Origin: Bolinopsis microptera
Lineage: Eukaryota; Ctenophora; Tentaculata; Lobata; Bolinopsidae
Length of the DNA: 64,000 bases
Direction: 5' to 3'
NCBI RefSeq assembly: GCF_026151205.1
Contig: NC_087083.1
Coordinates: forward strand, 5,744,460 to 5,808,459
Below the pieces are notes generated by a model that was not told the origin of the DNA, made no database searches, and was given only the letters and a program-made list of their open reading frames with translations. A program made the translations under genes and the position numbers. How positions within the stretch are numbered: the first letter of the stretch is position 1; every line of letters starts with the position of its first letter. Shown in pieces: positions 1,267 through 59,484 of this stretch.

Positions 1267-4200
1267 AGCCTGAGTCAGCAGCACAAATGAGTAAGAATGT
1301 GAAATTAAATCTGAGCTTGAAGACGTCTCTTGCAGGTATGACGTTGATAAATAAAATAATGATAAAGTAAATACTTAAATTAACGTGATACCTCTGAATT
1401 TCTATTCATGTTGGGATATTGAATAATCGGATTTCAAACAGAATTTAATACAGACTAGTTTTCAATTTTTTTCCTTACATAATTTGAACGCATGTTATAT
1501 TTCAGCTGAAATGGTAGACGTACTCAGAGACCAGCTCCAAACAGCCAAAGAACATTTTGCTAAAACAATCGAGGAGGTAAACCTGGAGATATCAAACTTT
1601 GTGGTGCCTGCAGCCACCGACATCAACATGATAAGCGAACATTTTGAAGATTTATTGCGGAATTCCTCTGTTGAGAAAGCCATCCACCAGCTCAGCAGTT
1701 ATTAGCTAATGATTTAGAACTGTTAGGTAGAGGTACAACATCTATAGACATTCAGGCTATGATAGACAACATGCGGGTCAAGTTTGAAGCATCATCTTCC
1801 AAATTCCAAAACGAAACACCAGCTGATGTTGGAGTGAAGGCTTTGGAGGAAGCCATTTCAGAAGTTAAATTCGAGACACTGAAAGTGCTGAAACTTAAAT
1901 TTCAGCTGATCAGATTGAAACATTTAATGTTGAAAGCGAAACATCAGACAGTGAAATCGAAGCACCAGAACTTGACTTCCAAACGACAGTCATTAAAATC
2001 AAACAAACTGTCAGACAAACCAATTTTTAATGATATCTACGATTGTAGTGAAAAACCAGCAAAGGAAGATGAAGAGTTTTTAGAAAAAGCAAGGAAGTTT
2101 TTTGAAGAGGCTTATGATGAACTGATGTTAGTCGAAATGAAAACACCAGATGTTGGAATCGAACTTCCAGATGTTGATGAGTTCTTAGAACAGGCAAAAG
2201 TATTTTTTGGAGAGGCCTACCAAGAGTTGATGTCAATTGAAATTGAAACACCCGCTGTAGAAATCGAAATTCCAGCTTTCGAAGAATTCTTAGAACAGTC
2301 CAAGATTTTCTTTGATAAAGCCTATGAGGAAATGAAGGAAGACGAAATGAAAGCACGAACCGATAAAATCGAAATTGCAACTGACCAGGTTCAAATGCCA
2401 GAATTCGAAATAGAAACACCAGATGATGACCTCAGAACATCAGGAATCGAATTTGGAACACCAGCTGCAGAAATCGAAATTCCAGTTTTTGAAGAACTTT
2501 TAGAACAGTCCAGGATTTTCTTTGAAGAAGCTTACAAGGCAATGACGTTCGACGAATTTAAAGAACCAACCTTTGAAATGGAAATTGCAGCTGACCTAGT
2601 TGCAACGCCAGAATTTGGAATAGAAACACCAGGATTAGATTTCGAAACACCAATTATTAATATCGAAAGACCAACTATTGAAATCGAAACACCAAATGTT
2701 GAAACCAAAGAACGAGCCATCGAATTAGAATCATCATGTGTTGAAATCGAAGAACTAGCAATCGATTTTGAAAATCCAGCAATCGATATCGAAACACCAG
2801 ATGTTGAAATCGAAGAACCAGCAATCGAATTAGAATCACCAAGTGTTGAAATCGAAGAACCAGCAATCGATTTTGAAACACCAACGATTGATATCGAAAC
2901 ACCAAATGTTGAAATAGAAGAACCAACAATCGAATTAGAATCATCAAGTAATGAAATCGAAGAACCAGCAATCGATTTTGAAGCCCCAGCGATTTATATC
3001 GAAACACCAAATGTTGAAATCGAAACACCAGCAATCGAATTAAAAACAGCTGATTTTGAAATCGAAATTCCAGATTTTGAACCTGAAAGACCAGAGGCTG
3101 AGGTGGAAACAAAGACTTTGGATAAAGAAACGCCAGATATTCAAATCAAAATACCAGATGTCGAAATCAAAGCAACAGCTTTAGAGATAGAGATTCCAGC
3201 TGATCAGGTTGAAACATCAAATGTTAAAGATACAACACCAAATCTGGAAATCGAAGCACGGTGTGTCGAATTCGAAAGACAAGCTGAAGAATTTGAAACA
3301 CCAACTGTTGAAATCGAAGCACCAGCTTTAGAGATAGAGATTCCAGCTGATCAGGTTGAACCACCAAATGTTGAAGATTTAACACCAGATTTGGAAATCG
3401 AAGCACCGTTTGTCGAATTTGAAAGACAATCTGAAGAATTTGAAACACCAGCTGTCGAAATCGAAGCACCAGCTTTAGAGATAGAGATTCCAGCTGACCA
3501 GGTTGAAACATCAAATGTTGAAGATTTAACACCAGGTTTGGAAATCGAAGCACCGTTTGTCGAATTCGAAAGACAAGCTGAAGAATTTGAAACACCAACT
3601 GTTGAAATCAAAGCACCAGCTTTAGAGATAGAGATTCCAGCTGATCAGGTTGAACCACCAAATGTTGAAGATTTAACACCAGGTTTGGAAATCGAAGCAC
3701 CGTTTGTCGAATTTGAAAGACAAGCTGAAGAATTTGAAACACCAGCTGTCGAAATCGAAGCACCAGATTTAGAGATAGAGATTCCAGTTGACCAGGTTGA
3801 AACATCAAATGTTGAAGATTCAACACCAGATTCCAAAATTGAAGCATCGTTTGCTGAATTTGAAAGACAAGCTGAAGAATTTGAAACACCAGCTGTCGAA
3901 ATCGGAGCACTAGCTTTAGAGATAGAGATTCCAGCTGACCAGGTTGAAACATCAAATATTGAAGATTTAACACCAGATTTCGAAATCGAAACATCGTTTG
4001 CTGAATTCGAAAGACCAGCTGGTGGTATGAAAATACCAGCTATCGATGATGTCGACCAGCCAACAAAATTATCATCCCATCTGACGGACATGAAGTCTAA
4101 AGTCGAAACACTAAAGTTCGAAATCGAAGACATTTTGTTAAATGCTACAGCACCAGTATTTGAAATTGAAAAGCTACCAATCGAAGCCGAAATCAGAGAG

Positions 4201-7200
4201 CCAGTTGTCGAATTGGAGTCACCTGCCATTGAAATCGAAAACCCGGTTGAAGAAACTGAAACACCAGTAGTTGAAATCAAAGCACCATCTGTAGAAGTCG
4301 AGATTCCAGCTGATCTGGTTGAAACACAAAATGTTGACGTTTTAACACCAGATTACGAAATCGAAGCACCTTTTGTCGAATTTGAAGCACCTGCAATCGA
4401 AATCGAAGCACCCTCTGTAGAAGTTAAAACACCAGCTGTAGAAATCGAAGCACCAGCTGTGGAAGTTGAAACACCAGCTATCGAAATCGAAGCACCAGCT
4501 GTTGAGATTGAAACACCAGCTTTCGAAATCGAAGCACCAGCTGTTGAGATTGAAACACCAGCTATCGAAATCGAAGCACTAGCTGTTGAGATTGAAACAC
4601 CAGCCATCGAAATTGAAGCACCCTCTGTAGAAGTTGAAACACCAGCTATCAAAATCGAAGAACCAACTGTGGAAGTTGAAACACCAGCTGTAGAAATCGA
4701 AGCACCAGCTGTGGAAATTGAAACACCAGCTATCAAAATCGAAGAACCAACTGTGGAAGTTGAAACACCAGCTGTAGAAATCGAAGCACCAGCTGTGGAA
4801 ATTGAAGAAAATGTGGTCAGGTCAACTGCAACAGTTAAAATTGAAACGGCGAAAGCGATTTGGGCAGAGGGTCCGGGATTGATGGACTGTTTTGAGGGTG
4901 ATCAGGGTGACTTTCAAATATTTAACAAACATGCTGGACACGGTATACTGAGTGTGGAAGTGAAGGGATCCAAAGCCAAATCTCAAGTAACTGAATGGAA
5001 GGAAGCGAAGGAGACAGTTACCTGTAGATACAACCCAGAAGTAGCTGGAAAATACACTATCAACATCAAGTGGGAGGACGAGCACATCAAGGGCAGTCCA
5101 TTCAAAATAAAAGTCAGGAAATGTCCAGTGAACCAAAAAGAAACACAAGCTGTTGAATTCGAAGCACCAGCAATTGACTTCGAAACGCCAGCTGTTGACA
5201 TCGAATATCCAGCTGTTCAGGTTGAAATAGATACACCAGATATGGAAGTTCAAACACCAATCGTTGAGGTAGAACAACCAGCTCCTGAAATCAAAAGAAC
5301 GTCGTCCCTCAAAAGAAGGGCCTCTAAACGATTATCGAAATTGTTTCGACCAGCCGCCAAAGTTGAGATGCCAGCTGACAAAGATGAATCACTGTCTCTT
5401 GAAATGGATGAACCAGCAATCGAATTGGAATCACCAACTATTAAATCCGAAGCTGCATCTGGCCAAATCGATACATCAGATGTTGATCTCGAAATACCAG
5501 TCGTCGAAGTGGAGCCATCAGCTCCTGAAATCAAAAGGACGTCTCTCAAAAGAAAGGCTTCTAAAAAATTATCGAAATTGTTTCGACCAGCCGCCAAAAT
5601 TGAGATGCCAGCTAATGAACATGAATCACTGTCTCTTGAAATGGATGAACCAGCAATCGAATTGGAATCACCAACTATTGAAGCCGAAGCTGCATCTGGT
5701 CAAATCGAAGGACCAACTGTAGAAATTGAAATACCAATCATTGAATCCGAAGCTGCATCTGGCCAAATCGATACATCAGATGTTGATCTCGAAATACCAG
5801 TCGTCGAAGTGGAGCCATCAGCTCCTGAAATCAAAAGGACGTCTCTCAAAAGGACGGCTTCTAAAAAATTATCGAAATTGTTTCGACCAGCCGCCAAAAT
5901 TGAGATGCCAGCTGATGAACATGAATCAATGTCTTTTGAAATGGATGAACCAGCAATTGAATTGAAATCACCAACCGTTATAGTTGAAACAGCTGCAATT
6001 GGCCAAATCGACGACGCATCAGCTGTAGAAATCAAAATTTCAACAAACCAGGTTGAAACTCCAGACGTTGACATCGATACACCAGATGTTGATCTCGAAA
6101 CATCGATCGTCGAAGTGGAACCTTCAGCTCCCGAAATCAAGAGAACGTCTCTCAAAAGAAGGGCATCTAAACGATTATCGAAATTATTTCGACCAGCCGC
6201 CAAAATTGAGATGCCAGCTGATGAACATGAATCAATGTCTCTTGAAATGAATGAACCAGCAATTGAATTGGAATCACCAACTGTTGAAGTAGAAGCAGCT
6301 GCAATTGGTCAAATCGATGAAGCACCAGCAGTAGAAATCGAAATTTCAACAAACCAGGTTGAAACTCCAGACATTGACATCGATACACCAAATGTTGATC
6401 TCGAAACATCGGTCATTGAAGTGGAACCTTCAGGTCCTGAAATCGAAAGAACGTCTCTTAAAAGAAGGGCATCTAAACGATTATCGAAATTGTTTCGACC
6501 AGCCGCCAAAGTTGAGATGCCAGCTGATGAACATGAATCAATGTCTCTTGAAATGAATGAACCAGCAATTGAATTGGAATCACCAACTGTTGAAGTTGAA
6601 GCAGCTGCAGCTGGCCAAATCGACGAAGCACTAGCAGTAGAAATCGAAATTTCAACAAACCAGGTTGAAACTCCAGACGTTGACATCGATACACCAAATG
6701 TTGATCTCGAAACACCAGTCGTCGAAGTGGAACCTTCAGCTCCTGAAATCAAAAGAACGTCTCTCAAAAGAAGGGCATCTAAACGATTATCGAAATTGTT
6801 TCGACCAGCCGCCAAAGTTGAGATGCCAGCTGATGAACATGAATCAATGTCTCTTGAAATGGATGAACCAGCAATTGAATTGGAATCACCAATTACTGTT
6901 GAAGTTGAAGCACACGCTGTTGGCCAAATCGACGAAACAACAGCAGTAAAAATCGAAATTTCAGCTGACCAGGTTGAATTGCCAAATGTTAATATCGAAA
7001 CGCCTGCAGTTGTTGAAGTGGAACCTCTAGCTCCCGGAATCGAGAGAAAATCTTTTAAAAGAAGGGCTTCTAAACGGATTTCAAAATTGTTTAAACCAAC
7101 GACCAAAATTGAAAAGCTAGCTGACAAAGATGAAACACCTGTTGAAATTGAAACATTAGGAATCGAATTGGAATCACCAACTATTGAAGTTGAAGCACAT

Positions 7201-10200
7201 GCAGTTGGCCAAATCGACGAAGCAACAGCAGTCAAAATCGAAATTTCAGCTGACCAGGTTGAATTGCCAAATGTTGAAATCGATACACCAGATGTTGATT
7301 TCGAAGCACCAGTCGTCAAAGTGGAACCTCTTGCTCCCGGAATCAAGATAAAATCCTTCAAAAGAAGGGCTTCTAAACGGATTTCAAGATTGTTTCGACC
7401 AGCTGCCAAAATTGAAATGCCAGCTGATGAACATGAATCACTATCTTTTGAAGTAGATACACCAGCAAATGAATTGGAATCACCAAATGTTGAAGAAGAT
7501 GAAGTAACAGCTGCGGAAATGAAAATTTCAGCTGACCAGGTTGAATTGACAGATGTTGAAATCGAAACACCAGATTTTGATTTCGAAGCACCAATCGTTG
7601 AAGTGGAACCTCCAGCTCCCGAAATCAAGAAAACATCTCTCAAAAGAAGGGCTTCTAAACGGATTTCAAAATTATTTCGACCAGCCGTCAAAATTGAAAA
7701 ACCACTGTCTTTTGAAATGGATGCACCAAAAATCGAATTGGACTCTCAAACTTTTGAAGTTAAAGCTTCTGTAGATGGCCAAATCGAGGCACCAGCCGTA
7801 GACAATGTTTCAGCGGAGCAAGTTGAAACGCCAGATGTTATAATTGAAACACCAGATGTTGAAATCGAAACACCTACCGTCGAAGTGGAGTCTCTAGCTC
7901 CCGAAATCAAGAAAACGTCTCTCAAAAGAAGGGCTTCTAAACGAATTTCAAGACTGTTTCGACCAACCGCCAAAATTGAAAAACCAGTTGATGAACATGA
8001 ATCAATGTCTCTTGAATTGGATGCACCATCAATTGAATTGGAGTCACTAACTGTTGAAGATGAAGTACCATCTGTAAAAATACAAATTTCAGCAAAACAG
8101 GACGATACACCAGACCTTGAAATCGATACACCAGACGTTGAAATCGATACACCAGACGTTGAAATCGATACACCAGATGTTGATCTCGAAACGTCAGTCT
8201 TTGAAGTGGAACCACCAGCTCCCGAAATCAAGAAAACATCACTCAAAAGAAAGGCTTCTAAACAGATTTCAAAATTATTTCGACCAGCTGCCAAAATTGA
8301 AAAACCAGTTGATGAACAGGAATCAATGTCTCTTAAAGTGGAAGCCCCTGCAAACGAATTTGAATCTCCAACTTTTGAAGTTGAAGCTTCAGTAGATGGC
8401 CAAATAGAAGCACCAGCTGTAGAAATCGAAATTTCAGCTGAGAAGATTGAAACACCAGATGTTGAAATCGAAACACCTACCGTCGAAGTGGAGTCTTCAG
8501 CTCCTGAAATCGAAACAACTCCTATCAAAAGAAAGAAATCAGGACGATTTTCACGATTGTTTCGACCAGCCACCAAAATTGAGCTGCCAGCTGACGAAGA
8601 TGAAACACCAGCTGTTGGAATAGAAGCCCCAGAAATAGAATTGGACTCTCCAAGTTCTGAAGCTAAAGCTTCTGTAGATAACCAAATAGAAGCACCAGCT
8701 GTAGAAATCGAAATTTCAGCTGAGAAGATTGAAACACCAGATGTTGCAATCGAAACACCAGATGTTGAACTCGAAACACCTACTGTCGAAGTGGAGTCTT
8801 CAGCTCCTGAAATCGAATCAACTCCTATCAAAAGAAAAAAATCGGGACGATTTTCACGATTGTTTCAACCAGCCGCCAAAATTGAGCTGCCAGCTGACGA
8901 AGATGAAACACCAGCTGTTGGAATGGAAGCCCCAGAAATAGAATTGGACTCTCCAAGTTCTGAAGTTAAACGTTCAGTAGATGGCCAAATAGAAGCACCA
9001 GCTGTAGAAATCGAAATTCCAGCTAATAAGATTGAAACACCAGATGTTGAACTCGAAACACCAGATGTTGAAATCGAATCACCAGATGTTGAACTTGAAA
9101 CAACTACCGTCGAAGTGGAGTCTTCAGCTCCTGAAATCAAAACAACTCCTATCAAAAGAAAGAAATCGGGACGATTTTCACGATTGTTTCGACCAGCTGC
9201 CAAAATTGAGCTGCCAGCTGACGAAGATGGATCACCAGCGGTTGGAATGGAAGCCCCAGAAATAGAATTGGACTCTCCAAGTTCTGAAGTTAAACCTTCA
9301 GTAGATGGCCAAATAGAAGCACCAGCTGTAGAAATCGAAATTCCAGCTAATAAGATTGAAACACCAGATGTTGAACTCGAAACACCTACCGTCGTAGTGG
9401 AGTCTTCAGGTCCTGAAATCGAATCAACTCTTACCAAAAGAAAAAAATCTGGACGATTTTCACGATTGTTTCAACCAACCGCCAAAATTGAGCTGTCAGC
9501 TGACGAAGATGGGACATCAGTTGTTGGAATGGAAGCCCCAGAAATAGAATTGGACTCTCCAAGTTCTGAAGTTAAAGCTTCTGTAGATGGTCAAATAGAA
9601 GCACCAGCTGTAGAAATCGAAATTCCAGCTAATAAGATTGAAACACCAGATGTTGAAATCGAATCACCAGATGTTGAAATCGAATCACCAGATGTTGAAC
9701 TCGAAACACCTACCGTCGAAGTGGAGTCTTCAGCTCCTGAAATCAAAACAACTCCTATCAAAAGAAAGAAATCGGGACGATTTTCACGATTGTTTCGACC
9801 AGCCGCCAAAATTGAGCTGTCAGCTGACGAAGATGGGACATCAGTTGTTGGAATGGAAGCCCCAGAAATAGAATTGGACTCTCCAAGTGCTGAAGTTAAA
9901 GCTTCTGTAGATGGTCAAATAGAAGCACCAGCTGTAGAAATCGAAATTCAAGCTAATAAGATTGAAACACCAGATGTTGAACTCGAAACACCAGATGTTG
10001 AACTCGAAATTTCAGCTGAGAAGATTGAAACACCAGATGTTGAAATCGAATCACCAGATGTTGAAATCGAATCACCAGATGTTGAACTTGAAACACCTAC
10101 TGTCGAAGTGGAGTCTTCAGCTCCTGAAATCGAAACAACTCCTATCAAAAGAAAAAAATCGGGACGATTTTCACGATTGTTTCAACCAGCCACCAAAATT

Positions 10201-11412
10201 GAGCTGCCAGCTGACGAAGATGAAACACCAGCTGTTGGAATGGAAGCTTCAGAAATAGAATTGAACTCTCCAAGTTCTGAAGCTAAAGCTTCTGTAGATG
10301 GCCAAATAGAAGCACCAGCTGTAGAAATCGAAATTTCAGCTAATAAGATTGAAACACCAGATGTTGAAATCGAAACACCAGATGTTGAAATCGAAACACC
10401 TACTGTCGTAGTGGAGTCTTCAGGTCCTGAAATCGAAACAACTCCTATCAAAAGAAAGAAATCGGGACGATTTTCACGATTGTTTCGACCAGCCGCCAAA
10501 ATTGAGCTGCCAGCTGACGAAGATGGATCACCAGCGGTTGGAATGGAAGCCCCAGAAATAGAATTGGACTCTCCAAGTTCTGAAGCTAAAGCTTCTGTAG
10601 ATGGCCAAATAGAAGCACCAGCTGTAGAAATCGAAATTTCAGCTAATAAGATTGAAACACCAGATGTTGAAATCGAAACACCTACTGTCGTAGTGGAGTC
10701 TTCAGGTCCTGAAATCAAAACAACTCCTATCAAAAGAAAGAAATCGGGACGATTTTCACGATTGTTTCGACCAGCCGCCAAAATTGAGCTGCCAGCTGAC
10801 GAAGATGGGACATCAGTTGTTGGAATGGAAGCCCCAGAAATAGAATTGGACTCTCCAAGTTCTGAAGTTAAAGCTTCTGTAGATGGTCAAATAGAAGCAC
10901 CAGCTGTAGAAATCGAAATTCCAGCTAATAAGATTGAAACACCAGATGTTGAAATCGAAACACCAGATGTTGAAATCGAAACACCTACTGTCGTAGTGGA
11001 GTCTTCAGGTCCTGAAATCAAAACAACTCCTATCAAAAGAAAGAAATCGGGACGATTTTCACGATTGTTTCGACCAGCCGCCAAAATTGAGCTGCCAGCT
11101 GACGAAGATGGATCACCAGCGGTTGGAATGGAAGCCCCAGAAATAGAATTGGACTCTCCAAGTTCTGAAGCTAAAGCTTCTGTAGATGGCCAAATAGAAG
11201 CACCAGCTGTAGAAATCGAAATTTCAGCTAATAAGATTGAAACACCAGATGTTGAAATCGAAACACCTACTGTCGTAGTGGAGTCTTCAGGTCCTGAAAT
11301 CAAAACAACTCCTATCAAAAGAAAGAAATCGGGACGATTTTCACGATTGTTTCGACCAGCCGCCAAAATTGAGCTGCCAGCTGACGAAGATGAACACCAG
11401 CTGTTGGAATAG
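1267..11412 (+). CDS. Gene A: giant filamin-repeat/acidic-heptad protein with 21 basic LFRP cassettes
   Basis: No named orthologue is recognised. An exon at 1267-1335 (after tttcag, phase-1 donor gtatga) joins an exon from 1506, in the same phases as gene B. The frame that reaches 1669-1705 must change to enter the long frame 1759-11412 (3217 codons), either by a small intron (1670-1755, gttgag...ttcag, phase-consistent) or across a one-base lesion. The protein begins with a helical region. Four FLEQA-type amphipathic motifs follow (nt 2068-2560), then acidic heptads with a 49-residue super-repeat (about 3180-4020). One filamin Ig-like repeat lies at 4855-5130, with GPGLMDCF, AGHGILSVEVKG, VAGKYTINIKW and GSPFKIKV. 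The rest is about 21 units, each with a basic cassette (KRRASKRLSKLFRP or KRKKSGRFSRLFRP) and VEIETP heptads. It is probably an intracellular scaffold or elastic protein (inference). The end at 11412 follows a one-base deletion in the last unit. Confidence 0.8.
1336..1505 (+). other. Intron of gene A
   Basis: The donor gtatga follows GCA-G, and the acceptor atatttcag precedes CTGAAATGG. Both sides are phase 1, and the pair matches the second intron of gene B in position and flanking codons. The sequence is AT-rich with in-frame stops. Confidence 0.75.
3177..4020 (+). repeat. 147-bp tandem coding repeat in gene A
   Basis: There are about six copies of a 49-residue unit built on EIPADQVE..NVEDLTPD..IEAPFVEFERQAEEFETP. 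The DNA spacing between matching positions is 147 bp (for example 3337 to 3484). The unit is seven heptads long. It is homologous to the ten-copy array of gene B, but the copies are more diverged here. Confidence 0.85.
4855..5130 (+). other. Filamin-type Ig-like repeat of gene A
   Basis: The translated segment shows the family's landmarks in order: A.GPGL, the DFQ(I/V)FN strand, AGHG.LSV.VKG, a YNPEVAGKYTINIKW strand pair and HIKGSPFKIKV. Filamin repeats are 90-100-residue Ig-like folds that bind partners by strand addition. Two cysteines (DCF and VTC) occur that typical vertebrate repeats lack. Confidence 0.9.
5281..11412 (+). repeat. Array of about 21 units with basic LFRP cassettes
   Basis: Each unit is roughly 80-120 codons long. 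It holds a basic cassette, then ADE(H/D)E, an acidic heptad stretch of variable length, and (S/P)APEI before the next cassette. Units 1-11 carry the KR(R/K)ASK(R/K)(L/I)SKLFRP type, and units 12-21 carry KRKKSGRFSRLF(R/Q)P. Later units are nearly identical in DNA, which points to recent unequal crossing-over or gene conversion. Confidence 0.9.
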
Positions 11413-34000: not shown

Positions 34001-35168
34001 AATCGAAGCACTATCTGTAGAAGTTGAAACACCAGCTATCGAAATCGAGGCACCAGTGGTTGAGATTGAAACACCAGCCATCGAAATCGAAGCACCTTCT
34101 GTAGACATTGAAACGCTAGATGTAGAAATCGAAGCACCAGCTGTAAAAGTTGAAACGCCAGCTATCGAAATCGAGGCACCAGCTGTAGAAGTTGAAACGC
34201 CAGCTATCGAAATCGAGGCACCAGCTGTTGAGATTGAAACACCAGTCATAGAAATCAAAGCAGCAGCTATGGAAATTGAAACACCAGCTGTAGAAATCGA
34301 AGCACCAGCTGTGGAAGTTGAAACACCAGCTATCGAAATCGGGGCACTAGCTGTTGAGATTGAAACACCAGCTATCGAAATCGAAGCACCAGCTGTAGAA
34401 GTTGAAACGCCAGCTTTCGATATCAAAGCAGCAGCTATCGAACTCGAAGCACCAGCTGCTGAAGTTGAAACACCGGCAATCGAAATAGAGGCACCAGCTG
34501 TTGAAGTTGAAACACCAGCATTCGAAATCGATGCACCAGCTGTTGAGATCGAAGCACCAGCTATCGAAATCGTGGCACCAGCTGTTGAGATTGAAACAAC
34601 AGTCATCGAAATTGAAGCAGCAGCTATGGAAATTGAAACACCAGCTGTAGAAATCGAAGCACCAGCTGTGGAAGTTGAAACACCAGCTATCGAAATCGGG
34701 GCACTAGCTGTTGAGATTGAAACAACAGCTATAGAAATCGAAGCACCAGCTGCAGAAGTTCAAACACCAGCTTTAGATATCGAAGCAGTAGCTATCGAAC
34801 TCGAAGCACCAGCTGTTGAAGTTGAAACACCAGCTATAGAAATCGATGCACCAGCTGTTGAGATTGAAACACCAGCTATCGAAATCGAAGCACCAGCTGC
34901 TGAAGTTGAAACACCAGCTTTCAAAATTGCAACTCCAGCTGTGGAAGTTGAAACACCAGCTATCGAAATCGAGGCACCAGCTGTAGAAGTTGAAACACCA
35001 GCTTTCGAAATCAAAGCAGCAGCTATTGAACTCGAAGCACCAGTTGTTGAAGTTGAAACACCAGTTGTAGAAATTGAAGCACCCTCTGCAGAAATCGAAG
35101 CTCCAGCTATCGAAATCGAGGCACTAGCTGTAGAAATCAAAATTTTGGCTGACCAGGCTTACGATTAG
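28052..35168 (+). CDS. Gene B: four-filamin-repeat, acidic-heptad protein (three exons)
   Basis: Predicted join is 28052-28124, 28335-28451 and 28624-35168. All three pieces fit phase 1 and give 2244 residues. Exon 1 starts MRRRGYNNSF, and exon 3 begins with a helical segment (LREQLQAAEENFVKTV). A frame-switched basic stretch and DQPPKL..QLTDMKSK follow, then three FLEQA motifs (29160-29400). A ten-copy 49-residue acidic array spans about 29590-31095. Filamin Ig-like repeats lie at about 31126-31395, 32010-32275, 32455-32722 and 32755-33025. EEVETPA heptads separate the first two, and about 2.1 kb of V-E-(I/V)-E-(A/T)-P-A heptads ends the protein. No LFRP cassette is present in the normal frame. 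No transmembrane segment or signal peptide is seen, so a cytoplasmic scaffold or spring-like role is inferred. Introns are 210 and 172 bp. Confidence 0.85.
29590..31095 (+). repeat. 147-bp coding tandem repeat of gene B, ten copies
   Basis: The unit is 49 residues (EIPADQVESPDDEVLTPDSE, then IGAPFVEFERSAEEVET, then (S/P)AVEIEAPALEI), exactly seven heptads. Ten copies are counted by the EVLT motif. They are nearly identical at the DNA level; differences are mostly T/S and S/Q swaps shared between non-adjacent copies. That pattern suggests gene conversion. Confidence 0.92.
31126..33025 (+). other. Four filamin-type Ig-like repeats of gene B
   Basis: Each has A.G.GL..CFVGD..(Y/D)(F/L), AG.G.(L/I)(S/T), a WK.AK segment, a Y.P..AG.Y.I.IKW strand pair and EEHI.GSPF.(I/V). 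Repeats 2 and 3 have VTYRY where the other two have a cysteine (ISCDY, ITCKY). The last three repeats are nearly contiguous (short linkers of 30-60 residues), so they could act as one rod. The first is set off by about 200 acidic residues. Confidence 0.9.
33030..35160 (+). repeat. C-terminal acidic heptad array of gene B
   Basis: The unit is seven residues (V/I)-E-(I/V)-E-(A/T)-P-A, coded by a 21-bp repeat (gctgttgaaatcgaagcacca and variants) for about 100 units. Hydrophobic and acidic residues alternate with a proline every seventh position, as in AHNAK-like and PEVK-like segments. Other frames across it are open because of this periodicity and are not genes. Confidence 0.92.
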
Positions 35169-41070: not shown

Positions 41071-41510
41071 CATTAACAGTACCCTTTCTTGAAGATTAAT
41101 CCTCTCAGTGGCAGTGGCGTGATATCGTTTTCAATGTAGTAAATTTTATATGTGAAAAATGCAGTTTAAGATATGATTTTCTTGAAAAACTTTCAAACAA
41201 AATTCTTTTTATTTTTGTGAGCTTTTATTTGAAATCCGCGAATAACGCTCAACATTGTTGTATATTGTAGCAGTGTATATTGTACTGTATATTGTAGTAG
41301 TGGTACTAATATCAGCATCAGTAGCACTAGATACTTAAATAGCAATTCACCACACACGCCCTCTAGTTGGCCTATTATACCTGTTAACAGGTAACACACA
41401 CACAAAAGAATGTATGTGCGTTTTGGTACTTTTACTTACGTGCTTTTTGGTAATTATACTTTTATTTGATTCAATTTCGCCCAGAAGAATGAAACTATAA
41501 ACTGTCAAAT

Positions 41511-44500
41511 ATGGGGCGTCAAACTTACACTGAAGACGCAGAAGTGACGGTGGATGTTAAAGCACAAGCATCTAAAGATGAAGACAGCTATAAATCGAAT
41601 GATTATGAAGAAGAAATCTCAGCTCTGGAAGAATTTATGGCGGGAATTCAAGAGGCTTTTGAATCACTGATACAATCATCAGAAGATGGAAGTAGCAGTA
41701 GTAGTAGCAGTAGTAGTAGTAGTAGTAGTAGTAGTGACGAGGAGGAGTTCTTAGAACAGGCATCGAAGTATTTTATTGAGGCTTATGATGAACTGAACTG
41801 TATCGGATTACTGATGAGTGATACGGACTCGTCTGGTATGGAATCGCCTACAGCTTTTGAAAAATTTGAAAATTCGGTTATCAAAGTGGAAGTGTCATCA
41901 GGGAAAGCTGAAACACCGACTCACGAATTTGAAAATTCAGTTATCGATGTGGAAATATCATCAGAGGAAGGAGAAACACCATCTTACGAATTTGAAAATT
42001 CAGTTATCGAAGTGGAAGACGAAGATGTCCAATTGAAAACATTACCTATTCCGATCAAAGTTATTTCTGTTGAAATCGAAGCCCCAGAAGTCGAAATCGA
42101 AGCACCAGCTGTCGAAATCGAAGAACCAGGTGTCGAAATCGAGGAACCAGCTTTTGAAATCGAAGCCCCAGAAGTCGAAATCGTAGCACTAGCTGTCGAA
42201 ATCGAAGGACCAGGTGTCGAAATCGAAGCACCAGCTTTTCAAATAGAGGCACCGGTAGTCGAATTGGAAACACCTTCCATTGGATTCGAAGGACCAGCTG
42301 TGGAAGTAGAAGCACCAGCTTTCGAAATTGAAGCTCCAGCTATGAAAATTGAAACACCAGCCATCGAAATCGAAGCACCCTCTGTAGAAGTCGAAACACC
42401 AGCTTTTGAAATCGAAGCACCAGCTTTGGAAGTTGAAACACCAGAAATCGAAATCGAATCACCAGCTGTAGAACTAGAAGTTGAAACACCAGCTTTTGAA
42501 ATCGACGCACCAGCTGTAGAACTAGAAGTTGAAAAACAAAAAACCGAAGAAAATGAAGTCATTGAAACGGAAGCAGAAGTCGAAATATCAGCAAATAAAG
42601 AGTTTCTTCCACAGGTTAGAACGTTCTTCCAAGAGCTACTGGATTTCGAAGAACCAGATGTCGAAATTGAAGAACCAGCTGGCGAAATCGAAGAAAATGC
42701 TTTTATTGAAGCGGAAGCACCAGCTGTCGAAATAGAAGAACCAGCTCTTGAAATCGAAGCACCAGCTGTCGAAATCGAAGAAAATGCTTTTATTGAAGCG
42801 GAAGCACCAGTTGTCGAAATAGAAGAACCAGCTCTCGAAATCGAAGCACCAGCTGTCGAAATAGAAGCACCAGTAGTCGAATTCGAAGAGTCAGTCATAC
42901 AAATCGAAAGTCCATCTGACCAGGCTGAAACACCATATGCTGAAACCGAAGCGATAAGAGCAGAGGGTCCGGGGTTGATAGACTGTTTTGTTGGTGATCA
43001 GGGCGACTTTCAAGTCTTCAACAGAAATGCTATACGCGGGACACTTAGTGTACGGGTGAAGAGACCCAAAGCCAAATCTCAAGTAGGTAAATGGAAGGGA
43101 GGAAAACGGACTGTAAACTGTAGATACAACCCAGAAGTAGCTGGAAAGTACATTATCATAATCAAGTGGGACTATCACCATATCAAGGGCAGTCCATTCA
43201 CGTTACAAGTTAGAAATCGTCCAGAAATCGAAACAACAACTGTTGAAATTGAAGCACCAGCAATAGAATTCGGATCGCCAACTGTTGAGGCTGAAGAACC
43301 AGCTGTAGAAAGCGACATTTCCGCTGACCAAGTTAAAACATCAGATGTTGAAATCGAATCTCTAATCGAAACGCCGTGGCCAGTATGGCCATGGGCAGAG
43401 GGTCCGGGCTTGATGGACTGTTTTGTGGGTGATCTGGTTGACTTCCAAGTCTTCAAAGAACAAGCTGGACGCGGCACACTAAGTGTGAGAATTAAGGGAC
43501 CCAATGCCAAATCTCAAGTAAATATATGGAAGGGACCGAAACGGACCGTCACCTGTAGATACAGCCCAGAAGTAGCTGGAAAGTACACCATCAACATCAA
43601 GTGGAAGGACGAACACATCATGGGCAGTCCATTCAACATAAAAGTCAGAAAACACCCAGCAATAGACAGCGGAACAACAGTTGCCGAAATCGAAGCTCCA
43701 GCAATGGAATTCCAATCGCCAACAGTTGAAGCTGATACATCACCTGAAGAAATCGAAATTCCAACGGACCAGATTGAAACCCAAGATGTTGAAATCGAAA
43801 AACCAGCAATTGAATTCAAAACGCCAGCTGTCGAAATCGATACACTCGATGGTGAACTCAAAACACCACCCGTTGAAGTGGAACCTCCAGCGTCCGGGAT
43901 CAAAAAAACGTCTCTTAAAAGAAAGGCCTCTGCACGAATTTCACGATTGTTTCGACCAGCTGCCAAAATTGAGCTGCCAGCTGACGAAGATGGAACACCA
44001 GCTGTTGAAGTGGAAGCCCCTGAAATTGAATTGGAATCTCCAACTTTTGAAGTTGAAGCTTCTGTAGATGGACAAATCGAAGAACCAAAAATGGACATTT
44101 CAGCTGAGAAGATCGAGACGCCGGATGTTGAAATTGAATCACCAGATGTTGAACTCGAAACACCAAATGTTACAGTCGAAGTGGAGTCTTCAGCTCCTGA
44201 AATCGAAACGACACCTATCAAAAGAAAGAAATCAGGAAGATTCTCACGATTGTTTCGACCAGCCGCCAAAATTGAACTGCCAGCTGACGAAGTTGAAACA
44301 CCAGCTTTGGAAATCGATTCACCAGTAATTGGATCACCAACTGTTGAAGCTAATGGACCAGCTGCAGAAATTGAAATTTCAGCTGACCAGATTAAAACTG
44401 CAAAGGTTGAAGTCGCCATTTCAAATGTTGAACTAGAAACCCCAGCCGTCGAAGTAGAGCCAACAGTCTCCGGAATCAAGAAAACATCTCTCAAAAGAAA

Positions 44501-45179
44501 GAAATCGGGACGATTTTCACGATTATTTCGACCAGCCGCCAAAATTGAATTGCCAGCTGACGAACTTGAAACACCAGCTCTCGAAATCGATTCACCAGTA
44601 ATCGAATTGGAATCACCAACTGTTGAAGCTAATGGACCAGCTGCAGAAATTGAAATTTCAGCTGACCAGATTAAAACTGCAAAGGTTGAAGTCGCCATTT
44701 CAGATGTTGAACTAGAAACCCCAGCCGTCGAAGTAGAGCCAACAGTCTCCGGAATCAAGAAAACATCTCTCAAAAGAAAAGCTTCTGCAAGAATGTCAAA
44801 ATTGTTTCGACCAGCTGCTAAAACTAACAAACCAGCTGACAAACTTGAAACACCAACCGTTGAACTCGAAGCACCAGCAATCGAATTGGAATCTGCAATT
44901 GTTGAAGCTGAAGCACCAGCTGCAGAAATCGTAATTTCAGCTGAGCAGGTTGTTGAACTCGAAACCCCAGTCGTCGAAGTGGAACCACCATCTTCTGGAA
45001 ACAAAAGAACATCCCTTAAAAAAAATAAATCGGGACGATTTTCACGATTGTTTCGACCAGCCGCTAAAATTGAAGTGTCAGCTGACAAAGATGGATCACC
45101 AGCTGTTGAAATCGAAGCACCAGAAATCGAATTGGAATCACCAATTGTTAAAGCTGAAGTACCAGCTGCAGAAATTTAA
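41511..45179 (+). CDS. Gene C: two-filamin-repeat protein with poly-Ser and five LFRP cassettes
   Basis: A single exon of 1222 codons starts MGRQTYTEDAEV in a context shared with gene B (gaatgaaact..aa..gtca.atATG). Order: acidic helix, a poly-Ser run from an (agt)n microsatellite (about 41690-41736), one FLEQA motif ending ELNCIG, and acidic heptads. Filamin Ig-like repeats follow at about 42951-43222 and 43382-43654, then five basic cassettes (K(T/R)SLKRKASARISRLFRP or KRKKSGRFSRLFRP) separated by heptads. The stop lies inside a heptad: AAT-TTAAATTTCAG stands where sister units have ATTGAAATTTCAG, so a GAA-to-TAA change probably shortened the protein. The role is inferred as for gene A. Confidence 0.88.
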   Translation: MGRQTYTEDAEVTVDVKAQASKDEDSYKSNDYEEEISALEEFMAGIQEAFESLIQSSEDGSSSSSSSSSSSSSSSDEEEFLEQASKYFIEAYDELNCIGLLMSDTDSSGMESPTAFEKFENSVIKVEVSSGKAETPTHEFENSVIDVEISSEEGETPSYEFENSVIEVEDEDVQLKTLPIPIKVISVEIEAPEVEIEAPAVEIEEPGVEIEEPAFEIEAPEVEIVALAVEIEGPGVEIEAPAFQIEAPVVELETPSIGFEGPAVEVEAPAFEIEAPAMKIETPAIEIEAPSVEVETPAFEIEAPALEVETPEIEIESPAVELEVETPAFEIDAPAVELEVEKQKTEENEVIETEAEVEISANKEFLPQVRTFFQELLDFEEPDVEIEEPAGEIEENAFIEAEAPAVEIEEPALEIEAPAVEIEENAFIEAEAPVVEIEEPALEIEAPAVEIEAPVVEFEESVIQIESPSDQAETPYAETEAIRAEGPGLIDCFVGDQGDFQVFNRNAIRGTLSVRVKRPKAKSQVGKWKGGKRTVNCRYNPEVAGKYIIIIKWDYHHIKGSPFTLQVRNRPEIETTTVEIEAPAIEFGSPTVEAEEPAVESDISADQVKTSDVEIESLIETPWPVWPWAEGPGLMDCFVGDLVDFQVFKEQAGRGTLSVRIKGPNAKSQVNIWKGPKRTVTCRYSPEVAGKYTINIKWKDEHIMGSPFNIKVRKHPAIDSGTTVAEIEAPAMEFQSPTVEADTSPEEIEIPTDQIETQDVEIEKPAIEFKTPAVEIDTLDGELKTPPVEVEPPASGIKKTSLKRKASARISRLFRPAAKIELPADEDGTPAVEVEAPEIELESPTFEVEASVDGQIEEPKMDISAEKIETPDVEIESPDVELETPNVTVEVESSAPEIETTPIKRKKSGRFSRLFRPAAKIELPADEVETPALEIDSPVIGSPTVEANGPAAEIEISADQIKTAKVEVAISNVELETPAVEVEPTVSGIKKTSLKRKKSGRFSRLFRPAAKIELPADELETPALEIDSPVIELESPTVEANGPAAEIEISADQIKTAKVEVAISDVELETPAVEVEPTVSGIKKTSLKRKASARMSKLFRPAAKTNKPADKLETPTVELEAPAIELESAIVEAEAPAAEIVISAEQVVELETPVVEVEPPSSGNKRTSLKKNKSGRFSRLFRPAAKIEVSADKDGSPAVEIEAPEIELESPIVKAEVPAAEI
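41690..41736 (+). repeat. (agt)n microsatellite coding poly-Ser
   Basis: About fifteen consecutive agt/agc triplets encode a serine run just before the FLEQA motif of gene C. The other paralogues lack it. Confidence 0.92.
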
Positions 45180-53385: not shown

Positions 53386-53784
53386 TTTCATCTTTTTTTG
53401 ATAATGTTTTCGATGTTGTAAATTTCATATGAAACTAGTACAGGACACTTTCTTGAAGAAAAAAAAAAGAAATAATAATTTCTGTGGGCTGCCAAAATAA
53501 GATTTTATATTCACTTCCTGTAAGTTTTGACATCCTCTAAATGCGCGTTTCCAGTCGGGAAAAATCTGGCTAACAGGAAAATTTATTGATATCTTACCGT
53601 TTCCGGTCCCTAACTCTAAACCGGTTTGACCATAATTGATAATAATTGATGATAGGTACCAGGTACGTGGCACGTGCCCATTAACCTTTTCTACTTGTGA
53701 TAGATACGTATAAGAATAATTTACGTGCTTTTAATTGGTACTTCAACAAACTATCTAATATTATTTTACTCAGAAGAATAAAAG

Positions 53785-56316
53785 ATGGATGCAGAATTAT
53801 TGATGATTTTAGACGCAGGGGCAGAATATGGCCACAAATCGACAGTCGAGGAAGAGTTTCTAGAACAAACGAGGAAGTTTTTTCTAGAGACTTATCAAGA
53901 GCTGAATTGTATCGGAGCTCCAATGACTAATACTCCGACACCAGATGAAGAAAGATCAGTTATTGAAGAAGAAGCATCAGATGTCGAAATCGAAGCACCA
54001 GCAGTCGAATCGGAAACACCAGCCATGAAATTCACAACGCCAGATGTTGAAGTTGAAACATCAAATGTTGAAATAGAAGCAACAGCTGTTGAAACCGAAG
54101 CAACAGCTGTTGAATTGGAAACTAAAGCCACGGAAATCGAAGATCCAGTAGTGGTAGTTGAAACAGCGGGTGTCAGCTGGTTGTTTGACCTGGTTAAAAC
54201 TGCAGAAGCAGGAATTGAAAGTTTCAGTGAAACAGTAGCTGCTGGAATTGAAACAGTAGCGGCTGGAATTGAAATTCTAGCCCTGGAAGACGACACTACA
54301 GAGGTCGAAGAAGAACCACTAGAAGTTGAAGACATTATATCTGAAGTTGTAGCGGAAGTGGTGAATATTGGAGAAGAAGCGGTCGAAATCAAGTCACCAA
54401 CTGCAAAAGAGAAACGTGAAACGCTGAAAAAGATACGAGCAGAAGGTCCGGGCTTAATGGACTGTTTTGTGGGTGATCTAACCTACTTCCAAATATTTAA
54501 AAAACATGCTGGACACGGTACACTTAGTGTCCAAATAAAAGCACCAAAAGCCAAATCTCAAGTTAGTGAATGGAAGGGAGCGAAACGGATCGTTACCTGT
54601 ATATACAACCCAGAAGTAGCTGGAAAGTACATAATCAACATCAAGTGGGAGAAGGAACACATAAAAGGCAGTCCATTCAAAATCAAAGTTGATCGTCCAA
54701 TCGAAATTTTTGATTGGACGTTAGAAATCGAAAGTTTAGCTGACGAGGACGAAACAGTTCCATATATTGAAATCGATGAAGTACCAGTTGACCAGACTGA
54801 AATTCCAGCCATCAAAATCGAATTTCCTGATGTTGAACTCGAAACATCAGCCGTCGAAGTGGAGCCACCCGCTTCCGGGACCAAAAAAACAGCTCTCAAA
54901 AGAAAGAAACCGGGACTATTTTTTCGATTGTTCCGACCAGCCGCCAAAATTGAAATGCCAGCTGACAGTGACAAAGATGAAACACCAGAAGTAGAAGCTG
55001 AAGCACTAAATGTCCGAAACGAGGGACAAGATAACGAAATCGAAGCACCGGTTGTCGAATCAGAAACACCAACTATGGAAATCGAAAGACCAGCTGACGA
55101 AGATGAAACACCAAATGTCGAAATTGAAATGCCAACTGTCAAAGATGAAACACCAGAAGTCGAAGCTGAAGCACTAAATGTCCAAAACGAGGTACTAGAT
55201 AACGAAATCGAAGCACCGGTTGTCGAATCAGAAACACCAACCATGGAAATCGAAAGGCCAGCTGAAGAAGTTGAAACACCAGCTGTCGAAATCGACTTAT
55301 CAGATGTTGCAGTTGAACTCGAACTCACCGAGGAGGAACCACAAGCTGTTAAAATAAAACCTTTCACACGATTTTTACGATTGTTTCGACCAGCAAAAGT
55401 TGATAAGCCAGCTCACGAACATGAAACTGTTGAAGTTGAAAAAAGAAATGTTGAACTGTTCAGATCAGCTGTCGAAGTGGAAATAACGGCATTGAAAAAA
55501 GAAAGGCCAGTTATCGAATTTGAAACAGCAGCTGTTGAAGTGGAAAAACCAAATGTCCAAGTTAATACACCAATTGCTGAAGTTGAAATACCAGATGTTG
55601 AATTCGGAAGACCAGTTGTTGAAGTGGAAATTAAGACTTTGGAAATAGAAACGACAGTTGTTAAAATTGAAACGCCAACAATTGATTATGAAACGCCAGC
55701 CGTCAAACTCGAATTACCATATTATGTCGAAATCGAAACAACAAATATTGATCTTGGAAAACCAGCTGTCGAATTGGAAATAAGGACTTTGCAAATAGAA
55801 ACGCCAATCGTTGCAATCGAAATGCCAGCAATTGAATATGAAAGGTCAGCCGTCGAAATAGAATCGCCAAATGTTGAAGCAGAACTTAAACTTGAAGTGG
55901 AGCCACAAGCTGTTAAAATTAAGACTTTTGCACGATTCTTACGATTGTTTCGACCAGCAAAAGTTTATATGACCGCTGACGAACATGAAACTGTTGAAGT
56001 TGAAGCACCAAGTGTTGAATTCGAAAGATCAGCTGTCGAAGTGGAAATAACGGCATTGGAAAAAGAAACTCCGATTGTTGAGGTTAAAACACCAAAATTA
56101 GTTGAAATCCAATCTGACACACCAATTGTTGGAAATCAAACACCACATATTTTTGAACAGAAAAGACCAGCTGTCGAAGTGGAAACAAAGACTTTGGAAA
56201 TAGAAACGCCAGTTGTCGAAATTGAGTCACCAGCTGACCAGGTTGAAAGAACAAATGTTGAATTTGAAACAATAGCCGTGGAAGCACAATTTTACATTAC
56301 CCGTGTCCACACATAG
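53785..56316 (+). CDS. Gene D: one-filamin-repeat acidic protein with divergent LFRP cassettes
   Basis: A single exon of 843 codons starts MDAELLMILDAGAEYG. One FLEQT-type motif (EEEFLEQTRKFFLETYQELN, ending CIG) follows, then acidic heptads and a non-repetitive helical stretch (WLFDLVKTAEAGIESFSETV). The filamin Ig-like repeat is at about 54431-54690 (GPGLMDCFVGD, AGHGTLSVQIK, VAGKYIINIKW, IKGSPFKIKV). Three basic cassettes follow: KKTALKRKKPGLFFRLFRP, then PFTRFLRLFRPAK and TFARFLRLFRPAK. The last two have lost the SLKR-type serine sites. Heptads near the end are the most diverged of the family. A possible aataaa signal lies near 56517. The role is inferred as for gene A. Confidence 0.88.
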   Translation: MDAELLMILDAGAEYGHKSTVEEEFLEQTRKFFLETYQELNCIGAPMTNTPTPDEERSVIEEEASDVEIEAPAVESETPAMKFTTPDVEVETSNVEIEATAVETEATAVELETKATEIEDPVVVVETAGVSWLFDLVKTAEAGIESFSETVAAGIETVAAGIEILALEDDTTEVEEEPLEVEDIISEVVAEVVNIGEEAVEIKSPTAKEKRETLKKIRAEGPGLMDCFVGDLTYFQIFKKHAGHGTLSVQIKAPKAKSQVSEWKGAKRIVTCIYNPEVAGKYIINIKWEKEHIKGSPFKIKVDRPIEIFDWTLEIESLADEDETVPYIEIDEVPVDQTEIPAIKIEFPDVELETSAVEVEPPASGTKKTALKRKKPGLFFRLFRPAAKIEMPADSDKDETPEVEAEALNVRNEGQDNEIEAPVVESETPTMEIERPADEDETPNVEIEMPTVKDETPEVEAEALNVQNEVLDNEIEAPVVESETPTMEIERPAEEVETPAVEIDLSDVAVELELTEEEPQAVKIKPFTRFLRLFRPAKVDKPAHEHETVEVEKRNVELFRSAVEVEITALKKERPVIEFETAAVEVEKPNVQVNTPIAEVEIPDVEFGRPVVEVEIKTLEIETTVVKIETPTIDYETPAVKLELPYYVEIETTNIDLGKPAVELEIRTLQIETPIVAIEMPAIEYERSAVEIESPNVEAELKLEVEPQAVKIKTFARFLRLFRPAKVYMTADEHETVEVEAPSVEFERSAVEVEITALEKETPIVEVKTPKLVEIQSDTPIVGNQTPHIFEQKRPAVEVETKTLEIETPVVEIESPADQVERTNVEFETIAVEAQFYITRVHT

Positions 56317-57324: not shown

Positions 57325-57768
57325 AATTTATGTCAATTTTTGTTTTTCATCTAGTACGAATTAAATTTGTTTGTAATGTCAGACTGAAGAAGATGCCGAA
57401 CATCCGAAATATTTCGTTTAAATAAATTTGGCGTTTCATTTGTCGATCGCAACTACAGAAGAAGAAATTAAATTTAAAATTTGTTATTTGTGCAGAGTAA
57501 TACATCATTTTCTGAAGACGATTCACAAAAGTAGTTTGAAAGCTTAATAAAGTTTTCGCATCACTTATATGTTTTAAGCAAACCCCCTCCAGGATCATTT
57601 TCTGGGAAGCTTATTCAAAGCAAATAGCTAAAAAGGAATAAATATTTCGACTTTTCTGATAAATTGTTTCAAAGCTTCAACATTGCTTTCAATTTCATTC
57701 AATAATAAAATAATTCAACTCTTTGGTACTTTTGTTAAGTATTTGACTTTATTTCACTTACAAGAAAA

Positions 57769-59484
57769 ATGATTGAAGGCGGAGATATGTCAAACGAAGC
57801 AGCAGTTGAAGATGACTCGACAGATGAACAAGACTTTTTAGAACAAGCGAGGAAATATTTACAAGAGACTTATCAAGAGCTGAAATGTACCGGAGCTCCA
57901 TTGACTGATAATGAAACACCTTTAACTGAAACACGAGGTGTCGATATTAAAACATCAGTTATCGAAGTGGAAACACCAGCTGTTCAAACCGAAACTCTTT
58001 CTGTCGAAATCGAAGCACCAGCAGTCAAATTGGAAACAGGAGCCATGGGATGCGAAACAGCAGATTTTGAAGTTGAAACATCAGATGATGAAATTGAAGA
58101 AAGATCAGTTATTGAAGAAGCTGTACTGGAAACAGTAGCCATGGAATGCGAATCACCAGATGTTGAAGTTCTAACATCAGATGTTGAAATTAAAGAAGGA
58201 TCAGTTATTGAAGAAGAATTAGCATCAGATGTCGAAATCGAAACGCCGTGGCCAATATGGGCAGAGGGTCCGGGCTTGATGGACTGCTTTGTCGGTGATC
58301 AGGGCTTCTTTAAAGTCTTCACCGGAGATGCCGGACAAGGTACACTTAGTGTGCAATTGAAGAAACCTAAAACCAAAGCTCGAGTAAGAAAGTGGAAGGG
58401 AGTGAAAGAGACCGTTACCTGTAGATACAACCCAGAAGTAGCTGGAAAGTACATTATCAAAATCAAGTGGGATGACGAACATATAATAGGCAGTCCATTC
58501 ACGATACAAGTCAGAATTAAACGTTCAGCAATTGAAATCGAAACACCAGCTGTCGAAATCGAAGCACCGGCTGTTGAAGTTGAAACAGCAGCCATGGAAT
58601 ACGAAACAGCAAATGTTGAAGATGAAGTATCAGATGTTGAAATTGACGAAAGATCAGTTATTGAAGAAGAAGCACCAATTGCCAAAACTGAAGCTCCGGT
58701 TGTCGAAGTTGAAACGATAGCTATGGACATAGAAAGACGGTGGCCAGCTCTTGAAATTGAAACGCCGTGGCCAGTATGGGCAGAGGGTCCGGGCTTGATG
58801 GACTGCTTTGTCGGTGATCAGAGTTACTTTCAAATCTTCACCGGAGATGCCGGACAAGGTACACTAAGTGTGCAATTGAAGAAACCCTTAGCCATACCTC
58901 GACTGAGAAAGTGGAAGGGAGTAAAAGTTAGTGAATGGAGGGGAGCCAAACGGACTGTAACCTGTTGCTACAACTCAGAAGTAGCTGGAAAGTACATTAT
59001 AAAAATCAAGTGGGAGGATGAGCACATTATGGGCAGTCCATTTAAAATACAAATCAGAAAACGTCCAGCAATCAAAATCGAAACACCTACTGTTGAAGTC
59101 CAAGTACTAGCAATTGAAGCGGTTGAAGTCAAGTTACCAACTGTAAAAGAGAAACGTGAAACGCTGAAAAAGATACGAGCAGAAGGTCCGGGCTTAATGG
59201 ACTGTTTGGTGGGTGATCTAACCTACTTCCAAATATTTAAAAAACATGCTGGACACGGTACACTTAGTGTGCAAGTAAAAACACCAAAAGCCAAATCTCA
59301 AGTTAGTGAATGGGAGGGAGCGAAACGGACCATTTCTTGTAGATACAACCCAGAAGTAGCTGGAAAGTACATTATCGTAATAAAGTGGGAGAAGGAACAC
59401 ATAATGGGCAGTCCATTTAGCATAAAAGTCAGGGAACGTCCAGCTAAATCTATTAAATTTGAAATGCCTGCTGTCGAATCATGA
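57769..59484 (+). CDS. Gene E: compact three-filamin-repeat protein
   Basis: A single exon of 571 codons starts MIEGGDMSNEA. One FLEQA motif (EQDFLEQARKYLQETYQELK, then CTGAP) and short acidic linkers follow. Filamin Ig-like repeats lie at about 58250-58518, 58771-59070 and 59171-59442, each with GPGLMDC, AG.GTLSVQ(L/V)K, EVAGKYII.IKW and GSPF. A Trp-Pro segment (ETPWP(I/V)WAEGPG) precedes the first two, as in the second repeat of gene C. Repeat 2 has an internal duplication (RKWKGVKVSEWRGAKR). No LFRP cassettes are present and heptads are few, so this is the least expanded member. The protein ends within a heptad at TGA. Confidence 0.9.
   Translation: MIEGGDMSNEAAVEDDSTDEQDFLEQARKYLQETYQELKCTGAPLTDNETPLTETRGVDIKTSVIEVETPAVQTETLSVEIEAPAVKLETGAMGCETADFEVETSDDEIEERSVIEEAVLETVAMECESPDVEVLTSDVEIKEGSVIEEELASDVEIETPWPIWAEGPGLMDCFVGDQGFFKVFTGDAGQGTLSVQLKKPKTKARVRKWKGVKETVTCRYNPEVAGKYIIKIKWDDEHIIGSPFTIQVRIKRSAIEIETPAVEIEAPAVEVETAAMEYETANVEDEVSDVEIDERSVIEEEAPIAKTEAPVVEVETIAMDIERRWPALEIETPWPVWAEGPGLMDCFVGDQSYFQIFTGDAGQGTLSVQLKKPLAIPRLRKWKGVKVSEWRGAKRTVTCCYNSEVAGKYIIKIKWEDEHIMGSPFKIQIRKRPAIKIETPTVEVQVLAIEAVEVKLPTVKEKRETLKKIRAEGPGLMDCLVGDLTYFQIFKKHAGHGTLSVQVKTPKAKSQVSEWEGAKRTISCRYNPEVAGKYIIVIKWEKEHIMGSPFSIKVRERPAKSIKFEMPAVES

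Follow-up and report, generated by a model that had tools for sequence, protein, structure and literature searches.

CH-less filamin-repeat genes with acidic heptad chains in tandem on a Bolinopsis microptera contig

What is encoded by genes that carry filamin repeats on long acidic chains, and lack the CH domains of filamin, is the question raised by a tandem array in the ctenophore Bolinopsis microptera. The window analysed here is a 64,000-nucleotide stretch of contig NC_087083.1 (C12:5744460-5808459; the genome searched comprises 264.65 Mb in 232 contigs). It holds five long plus-strand open reading frames (ORFs), A to E, each open from stop to stop, as expected from the five same-strand paralogues listed in a preliminary description of this DNA. 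The predicted proteins of these genes and their relatives are mostly acidic heptad chains of a few hundred to approximately three thousand residues, carrying none to four CH-less Filamin modules. They may be long intracellular scaffolds, that is, AHNAK/periaxin-like polyanionic chains with Filamin docking modules, a proposal to which we give about an even chance of being right.

Filamin repeats and the CH domain

Pfam Filamin was matched above its cut-off by all five proteins in hmmscan (whole-protein E 2.6e-13 to 2.3e-58), and the numbers of separate stretches (A 1, B 4, C 2, D 1, E 3) are exactly the repeat dosage previously proposed. The closest pair of repeats, B3 and B4, is 17 residues apart, and all others are separated by at least 40. 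No CH domain was found among the Pfam hits of A to E, and none of the 40 matches of a genome-wide CH search, which was exon-wise and may miss weak exons, lies at C12:5.69-5.82 Mb, so that the absence of CH reported in the preliminary description is upheld. The CH match closest to them on C12, at 7.41 Mb, is approximately 1.6 Mb away. Elsewhere, CH and Filamin matches lie close together at three loci (C8:14.55, C9:2.35 and C9:6.79 Mb), which by their domain content look like ordinary filamins.

A genome-wide Filamin search gave 79 matches, of which 19 fall in a cluster around the window genes, from C12:5692116 to 5813507. In a FastTree phylogeny of 46 domains, comprising these 19, 20 of the 60 other matches from the same genome (25 were cut and five of them dropped as shorter than 68 residues) and seven human repeats, the cluster domains form one clade (support 0.988) which human FLNA3 adjoins. 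The tree holds a single domain from the loci with both CH and Filamin. A typed consensus domain matched 48 different sequences in the PDB, and each of them is named as filamin, gelation factor or a chimera of these. Among chains of approximately single-domain length, Filamin-C 2d7o scores highest (56.5 bits), followed by Filamin-A 2bp3 and 2aav (53.9); of the alignments listed, those to the second domains of 2k7p (Filamin-A, 51.0) and 5dcp (Filamin-B, 50.8) come first. Several of the best-matching chains presumably correspond to filamin repeat 17, which belongs to group A. Repeats of that group carry a ligand-binding CD face, according to the sections cited of PMC3143143.

On pairwise codon comparison the Filamin domains are under purifying selection: the Nei-Gojobori ratio of non-synonymous to synonymous substitution rates (dN/dS) is below 1 in all 171 pairs of the 19 cluster domains, with a median of 0.36 and a range of 0.069-0.855, the pairs not being independent of one another. 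The modules have one invariant Cys, a feature that, with the acidic repeats, would suit polymers of the extracellular matrix or of mucus. In known cases, however, Filamin repeats lie in the cytoplasm, and no signal-peptide-like start was seen by eye at the modelled starts; both points count against an extracellular role, and we consider it extremely improbable.

Gene structure and the extent of the family

The modelled genes begin with a short exon 1, encoding a peptide such as MSADMEVEVSLEASLPSVELNHTFE..., which ends at CAG/GTATGA (GTAAGA in place of GTATGA in g2) and joins in phase 1 to a giant exon starting after TTTCAG. A stop-free, in-frame join was obtained in all six genes modelled (g2, g4, g6, A, B and F), in g2 with one of the two ATGs tried. 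The giant ORFs are open beforehand, and what the join adds is the matching frame and the similar exon-1 peptide only. Genes C, D and E have an ATG start inside the ORF, no exon 1 was seen for g3, and neither of the two ATGs tried for h2, a relative on contig C4, gave a stop-free join. The proposed exon 1 of gene A places its start at 1287, slightly downstream of the 1267 given earlier. The 3' end of gene A is uncertain, since the repeat runs on out of frame for approximately one more module beyond the stop at 11412. Together with the dN/dS values below 1, the in-frame joins make A to E and their relatives look like real genes (Table 1).

The five window genes are part of a larger family, of approximately 12 cluster genes and two on C4, which extends the set of five first described. 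The cluster spans approximately 123 kb, with six genes upstream (g1-g6) and one downstream (F) of A to E. The count of 12 is approximate because g2 has its second Filamin in a different, overlapping frame and g3 has no visible exon 1. No Filamin match was obtained in g4. Both g4 and g6 appear, on hydropathy calls only, to end in a transmembrane-like segment: their hydrophobic C-terminal stretches reach Kyte-Doolittle 19-residue maxima of 2.46 and 3.44, compared with at most 1.36 in the five window genes and 2.21 in an internal stretch of the C4 gene h1. Of 1503 candidates for a heptad query, 150 were scored; these yielded 122 matches at E <= 1e-9, none of them outside the C12 cluster and C4:6.495-6.512 Mb. 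The C4 locus (C4:6494457-6512200) holds two long heptad ORFs, h1 (1089 aa) and h2 (1893 aa), neither of which matches Filamin; they have a C-terminal tail in common (NMDS...EEFRKFI.KSDI.YR), and h2 shares its exon-2 start, by eye, with A and B. A DNA search with exon 1 of gene B recovered, besides that exon, g6 (93%) as well as a copy at C12:5724676 (72%). Only short broken frames surround the last (about C12:5724625-5725490), and this copy is, to judge from them, a decayed family member.

Table 1. Features of genes A to E, in positions of the window
Feature	Positions	Strand	Remarks
Gene A, proposed exon 1	1287..1335	+	MSKNVKLNLSLKTSLA...; donor CAG/GTATGA; in-frame join, 0 internal stops
Gene A, short exon 2	1506..1576	+	putative GT-AG intron 1577-1755, phase 0, follows; alternative: frame change and ATG start at 1759
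Gene A, giant exon	1756..11412	+	ORF stop to stop 1675-11412; model 3258 aa in total; 1 Filamin repeat, heptads, at least 20 basic modules
Gene A, Filamin repeat	4849..5106	+	Pfam Filamin match
Gene A, basic-module array	5311..11412	+	KR[KR]xSxRxSRLFRPAAKIE, mostly ~100 residues apart
Gene B, exon 1	28352..28451	+	MSADMEVEVSLEASLPSVELNHTFETHEPETPT
Gene B, giant exon	28624..35168	+	ORF stop to stop 28587-35168; model 2214 aa; 4 Filamin repeats, heptads
Filamin repeat B1	31119..31373	+	
Filamin repeat B2	32010..32261	+	
Filamin repeat B3	32454..32705	+	
Filamin repeat B4	32757..33005	+	
Gene B, heptad array	33025..35138	+	42-bp DNA unit, 50 copies; codon position 2 least variable
Gene C, coding ORF	41511..45179	+	stop to stop 41493-45179; 1222 aa; acceptor-like CAG just 5' (by eye)
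Filamin repeat C1	42945..43202	+	
Filamin repeat C2	43395..43637	+	
Gene C, stretch with five basic modules	43917..45179	+	
Gene D, coding ORF	53785..56316	+	stop to stop 53782-56316; 843 aa; one basic module
Gene D, Filamin repeat	54427..54681	+	
Gene E, coding ORF	57769..59484	+	stop to stop 57739-59484; 571 aa
Filamin repeat E1	58258..58503	+	
Filamin repeat E2	58774..59046	+	8-residue insertion
Filamin repeat E3	59167..59418	+	

Mobile and repetitive DNA lies between and beside these genes. A long interspersed nuclear element with endonuclease and reverse transcriptase (19397-23508) appears to have been active recently, since a copy 3' of gene F matches it at 99.55% identity over 3337 bases. 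A second reverse-transcriptase element, split over several ORFs, is present on the minus strand at 47176-50699, and a DUF3504/phage-integrase-like tyrosine recombinase ORF, which we take to be Crypton-like, at 60058-61131. A minisatellite with an 11-bp unit in 43.5 copies (11818-12296) lies just past gene A.

Acidic heptads, basic modules and their possible roles

Heptads of the type VEIE[T/A]PA, in general [V/I]E[V/I]ExPx, form the bulk of each protein outside the other modules and are fewest in E (12 by regular expression). Residue autocorrelation at lag 7 (0.16-0.41) exceeds that at lags 5, 6, 8 and 9 in all 14 proteins, 12 from the cluster and two from C4, which agrees with the acidic proline heptads noted at the outset. 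The 4935 heptad residues of the 12 cluster genes comprise E 23.6, P 14.5 (inflated because the regular expression requires P), V 13.1, I 12.6, A 10.9 and K 3.4 percent. The earlier term "PEVK-like" is only partly apt, because the heptads, rich as they are in E, P, V, I and A, are poor in K. Net charge is negative in each of the 14 proteins (lowest in A, -464), and lengths range from 286 to 3258 aa. Pfam hits to DUF4097, MoeA_C and "beta helical trimerization" on the repeats were set aside as compositional, no stretch passing on its own, as was PF12815 (Spt5 nonapeptide repeat) on h2 (E 2.2e-54), the best stretch of which is one residue long.

The alternation of hydrophobic and acidic residues in VEIE would be compatible with a stiff polyionic beta-rod, in which the heptads fold into regular beta structure and act as a spacer rod rather than a spring. 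AlphaFold2, run on one heptad stretch as a single sequence, placed strands every 7 residues (predicted local distance difference test, pLDDT, 65; predicted template modelling score, pTM, 0.57), and for AHNAK2 repeats a structure of linked antiparallel beta-strands is predicted in the part cited of PMC8833689. The AlphaFold2 model is not trusted, given that on perfect repeats the program tends towards unrealistic beta-solenoids (PMC11795689) and that Foldseek found no PDB match to the heptad model at E <= 0.001. Stacked Glu ladders also look implausible to us in the absence of counter-ions, and a rod of this kind is judged distinctly unlikely.

Successive units of 12 heptad arrays, taken without selection by sequence, were compared codon position by codon position. 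Position 2 is the least variable in 10 of the 12, and in the 105-bp array of B it is tied with position 3; differences per position are 0.232/0.085/0.276 in the 42-bp array of gene B and 0.456/0.277/0.502 in h2. The bias is significant in the B 42-bp array (p 7e-16), h2 (p 5e-27), g6 (p 9e-5), the C 21-bp array (p 0.006), g2 (p 0.008) and the A 42-bp (p 0.03) and C 84-bp (p 0.05) arrays, and it sits in the more diverged ones. The p-values are rough because neighbouring comparisons are not independent, and weak ones mean little because, of two non-coding control arrays (p 0.78 and 0.05), one gave p=0.05 (60 bp, arbitrary frame, 21 differences). Our reading is that the heptads keep residue class (hydrophobic, acidic, Pro) while V/I and T/A interchange. 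A codon table of heptads picked by regular expression was dropped as evidence of selection, since the expression itself fixes the residues.

Two further elements accompany the chains. Basic, Ser-containing modules with the core KR[KR]xSxR(F/I/L)SRLFRPAAKIE and variants, which had escaped the preliminary description, recur in A, C and D. By regular expression there are 31 in six of the 12 cluster genes (A 20, C 5, g4 3, and one each in D, g5 and g6), a lower bound in A, where at least one further copy escapes the expression. KRRAS in the module presumably resembles a PKA site, and we take its basic-aromatic stretch to resemble MARCKS-type membrane/calmodulin motifs. The short N-terminal motif previously noticed, helix-like and of the FLEQARKFFEEAYQEL type, was recovered by regular expression in all five window genes (three copies in A, one each in B to E) and in seven of the 12 cluster genes (g1, g4 and A to E), with g2 added by sequence search. 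By eye, the pattern of this helix may suggest a PKA anchor.

If the family does encode long intracellular scaffolds, the heptads would be extended polyanionic spacers, forming an AHNAK/periaxin-like rod or brush, and the Filamin modules would serve for docking, in the way that integrin tails and other partners dock on filamin's group A repeats. The basic modules, with KRRAS/KRKKS plus RFSRLFR, may attach to acidic membrane or back to the acidic chain of the same protein, and phosphorylation may release them. Actin contact, if any, would be made via partners rather than through CH domains. Spacer length, docking number and membrane anchoring are not the same in all paralogues, which would thereby set the reach and valency of one cortical network.

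Several observations weigh against this proposal. AlphaFold2 of the Filamin domain, from a 19-row alignment, reached a pLDDT of 40 only. A charge-hydropathy plot puts 10 of the 14 whole proteins on the "folded" side, by at most 0.05, and the heptads are therefore not established as disordered spacers. The basic modules are weakly constrained, with a median dN/dS of 0.63 and 88% of pairs below 1 (20 modules of gene A; 187 usable pairs of 190). Codon-position bias falls short of significance (p 0.07-0.34) in five of the 12 arrays, namely B 147-bp, B 105-bp, A 147-bp, A 105-bp and F, and in the 147-bp array of A it is position 3, not 2, that differs least.

These five arrays would also be in keeping with expanding minisatellites, kept open by units that are multiples of 3, in genes that are ageing duplicates with little function. 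There are tandem arrays with units of multiples of 21 bp and of other multiples of 3, and signs of decay are found in the broken copy upstream and in frames that break near the 3' end of gene A and within g2. Such an origin sits poorly with dN/dS below 1 in every domain pair, with splice sites and frames common to all six models and with codon-position bias in the diverged arrays. Moreover, many Glu codons lie one step from a stop in the 14 open ORFs, which were themselves chosen for openness. We regard this explanation as highly unlikely.

Relation to known scaffolds and significance

The window genes have the Filamin Ig-like repeat in common with filamins (human FLNA/B/C and Dictyostelium gelation factor). 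Filamins have an N-terminal CH pair and long contiguous repeat rods, whereas the window genes have one to four repeats with linkers of approximately 17 residues or more, and no CH pair was found by Pfam scan or exon-wise genome search. CH-less filamin-repeat products are already known, since C. elegans FLN-2C/D lack the actin-binding domain, as does FLN-1C; FLN-2, which most resembles Drosophila jitterbug, has Ig repeats interspersed with large regions of low homology (PMC3143143, sections cited). FLN-2C/D are described there as isoforms of a locus that also encodes the actin-binding domain, the full form having at least 23 repeats, whereas in the ctenophore cluster whole genes are without CH and the linkers are regular acidic heptads.

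AHNAK is not known to have Filamin repeats, and the cluster heptads may resemble AHNAK repeats. AHNAK, AHNAK2 and periaxin are giant, repetitive, charged, membrane-associated scaffolds, and the periaxin repeat is a pentapeptide, in contrast to the period of 7 in the cluster genes (PMC7072810 for both and PMC8833689 for the former, in the portions cited). AHNAK and periaxin also have an N-terminal PDZ, which the Pfam scan of A to E did not find at E <= 0.01. The earlier placing of the layout nearer to AHNAK than to filamin is reasonable; the titin-like elasticity suggested with it is less well borne out, given the K-poor heptads and the strong net charge of A.

Titin/connectin PEVK resembles the window genes in having a long chain, rich in P, E and V, together with Ig-like modules; it differs in that the cluster heptads have little K and the Ig modules are of Filamin type, and I-set, Fn3 and kinase domains of titin were not found in the Pfam scan of A to E at E <= 0.01. 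Load-bearing springs, in which the heptads would be elastic in series and fixed at either end by Filamin, helix and membrane parts, taking titin's role in muscle, tentacle or comb tissue, would fit the long repeats, the Pro every 7 residues and the range of lengths. In addition, ctenophores are reported to be without connectitin, in the section cited of PMC12198301, and a second locus with filamin plus long repeats exists at C8:5.737-5.752 Mb. No actin or myosin anchor was seen in the proteins, and the heptads are K-poor and highly acidic, which leaves springs unlikely.

The second locus (C8:5736859-5752411) has three ORFs in a row with Filamin repeats towards both ends (six and four separate stretches, two pieces being scanned) and, between these, a run of GPDGKPLL-type repeats that by eye comes to some three thousand residues; no CH match lies near the locus. 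If the three ORFs are one gene, filamin modules would have joined a giant repeat chain twice in this genome. A broader suggestion, which we find doubtful, is that ctenophores, without titin-type connectitin, joined filamin modules to giant repeat chains at least twice independently (VEIETPA heptads on C12 and GPDGKPLL on C8), making tension-bearing or cortex-spanning elastic scaffolds. A run of Filamin repeats at C7:12341908-12360561, with a 3914-aa ORF and several overlapping ORFs, likewise has no CH match nearby.

As a separate observation, the genome gave 55 aequorin-type photoprotein matches (contigs C1, C2, C3, C5, C9, C10 and C13), the majority arranged in tandem and a few of them incomplete or broken. 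One of these photoproteins matches berovin (E 1.2e-121) and mnemiopsin 1 (E 2.4e-121), its best hydrozoan match being obelin (2.9e-20). Ten full-length photoprotein genes are reported in Mnemiopsis (PMC3570280).

Separate CH-less genes that unite regular acidic heptads with basic modules and, in some members, a membrane tail were not found described in the literature searched, which left out most subscription papers and preprint servers. Ctenophores have been proposed as the sister group to all other animals. If the family is expressed as read, a filamin docking module would have been uncoupled from actin binding and put to new use on chains like those of AHNAK, and the finding would bear on how ctenophore tissues are elastic without titin-type proteins. 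Moreover, a tandem array in which spacer length, the number of modules and membrane anchoring all vary would be a natural series for the effects of scaffold reach and valency on cell mechanics.

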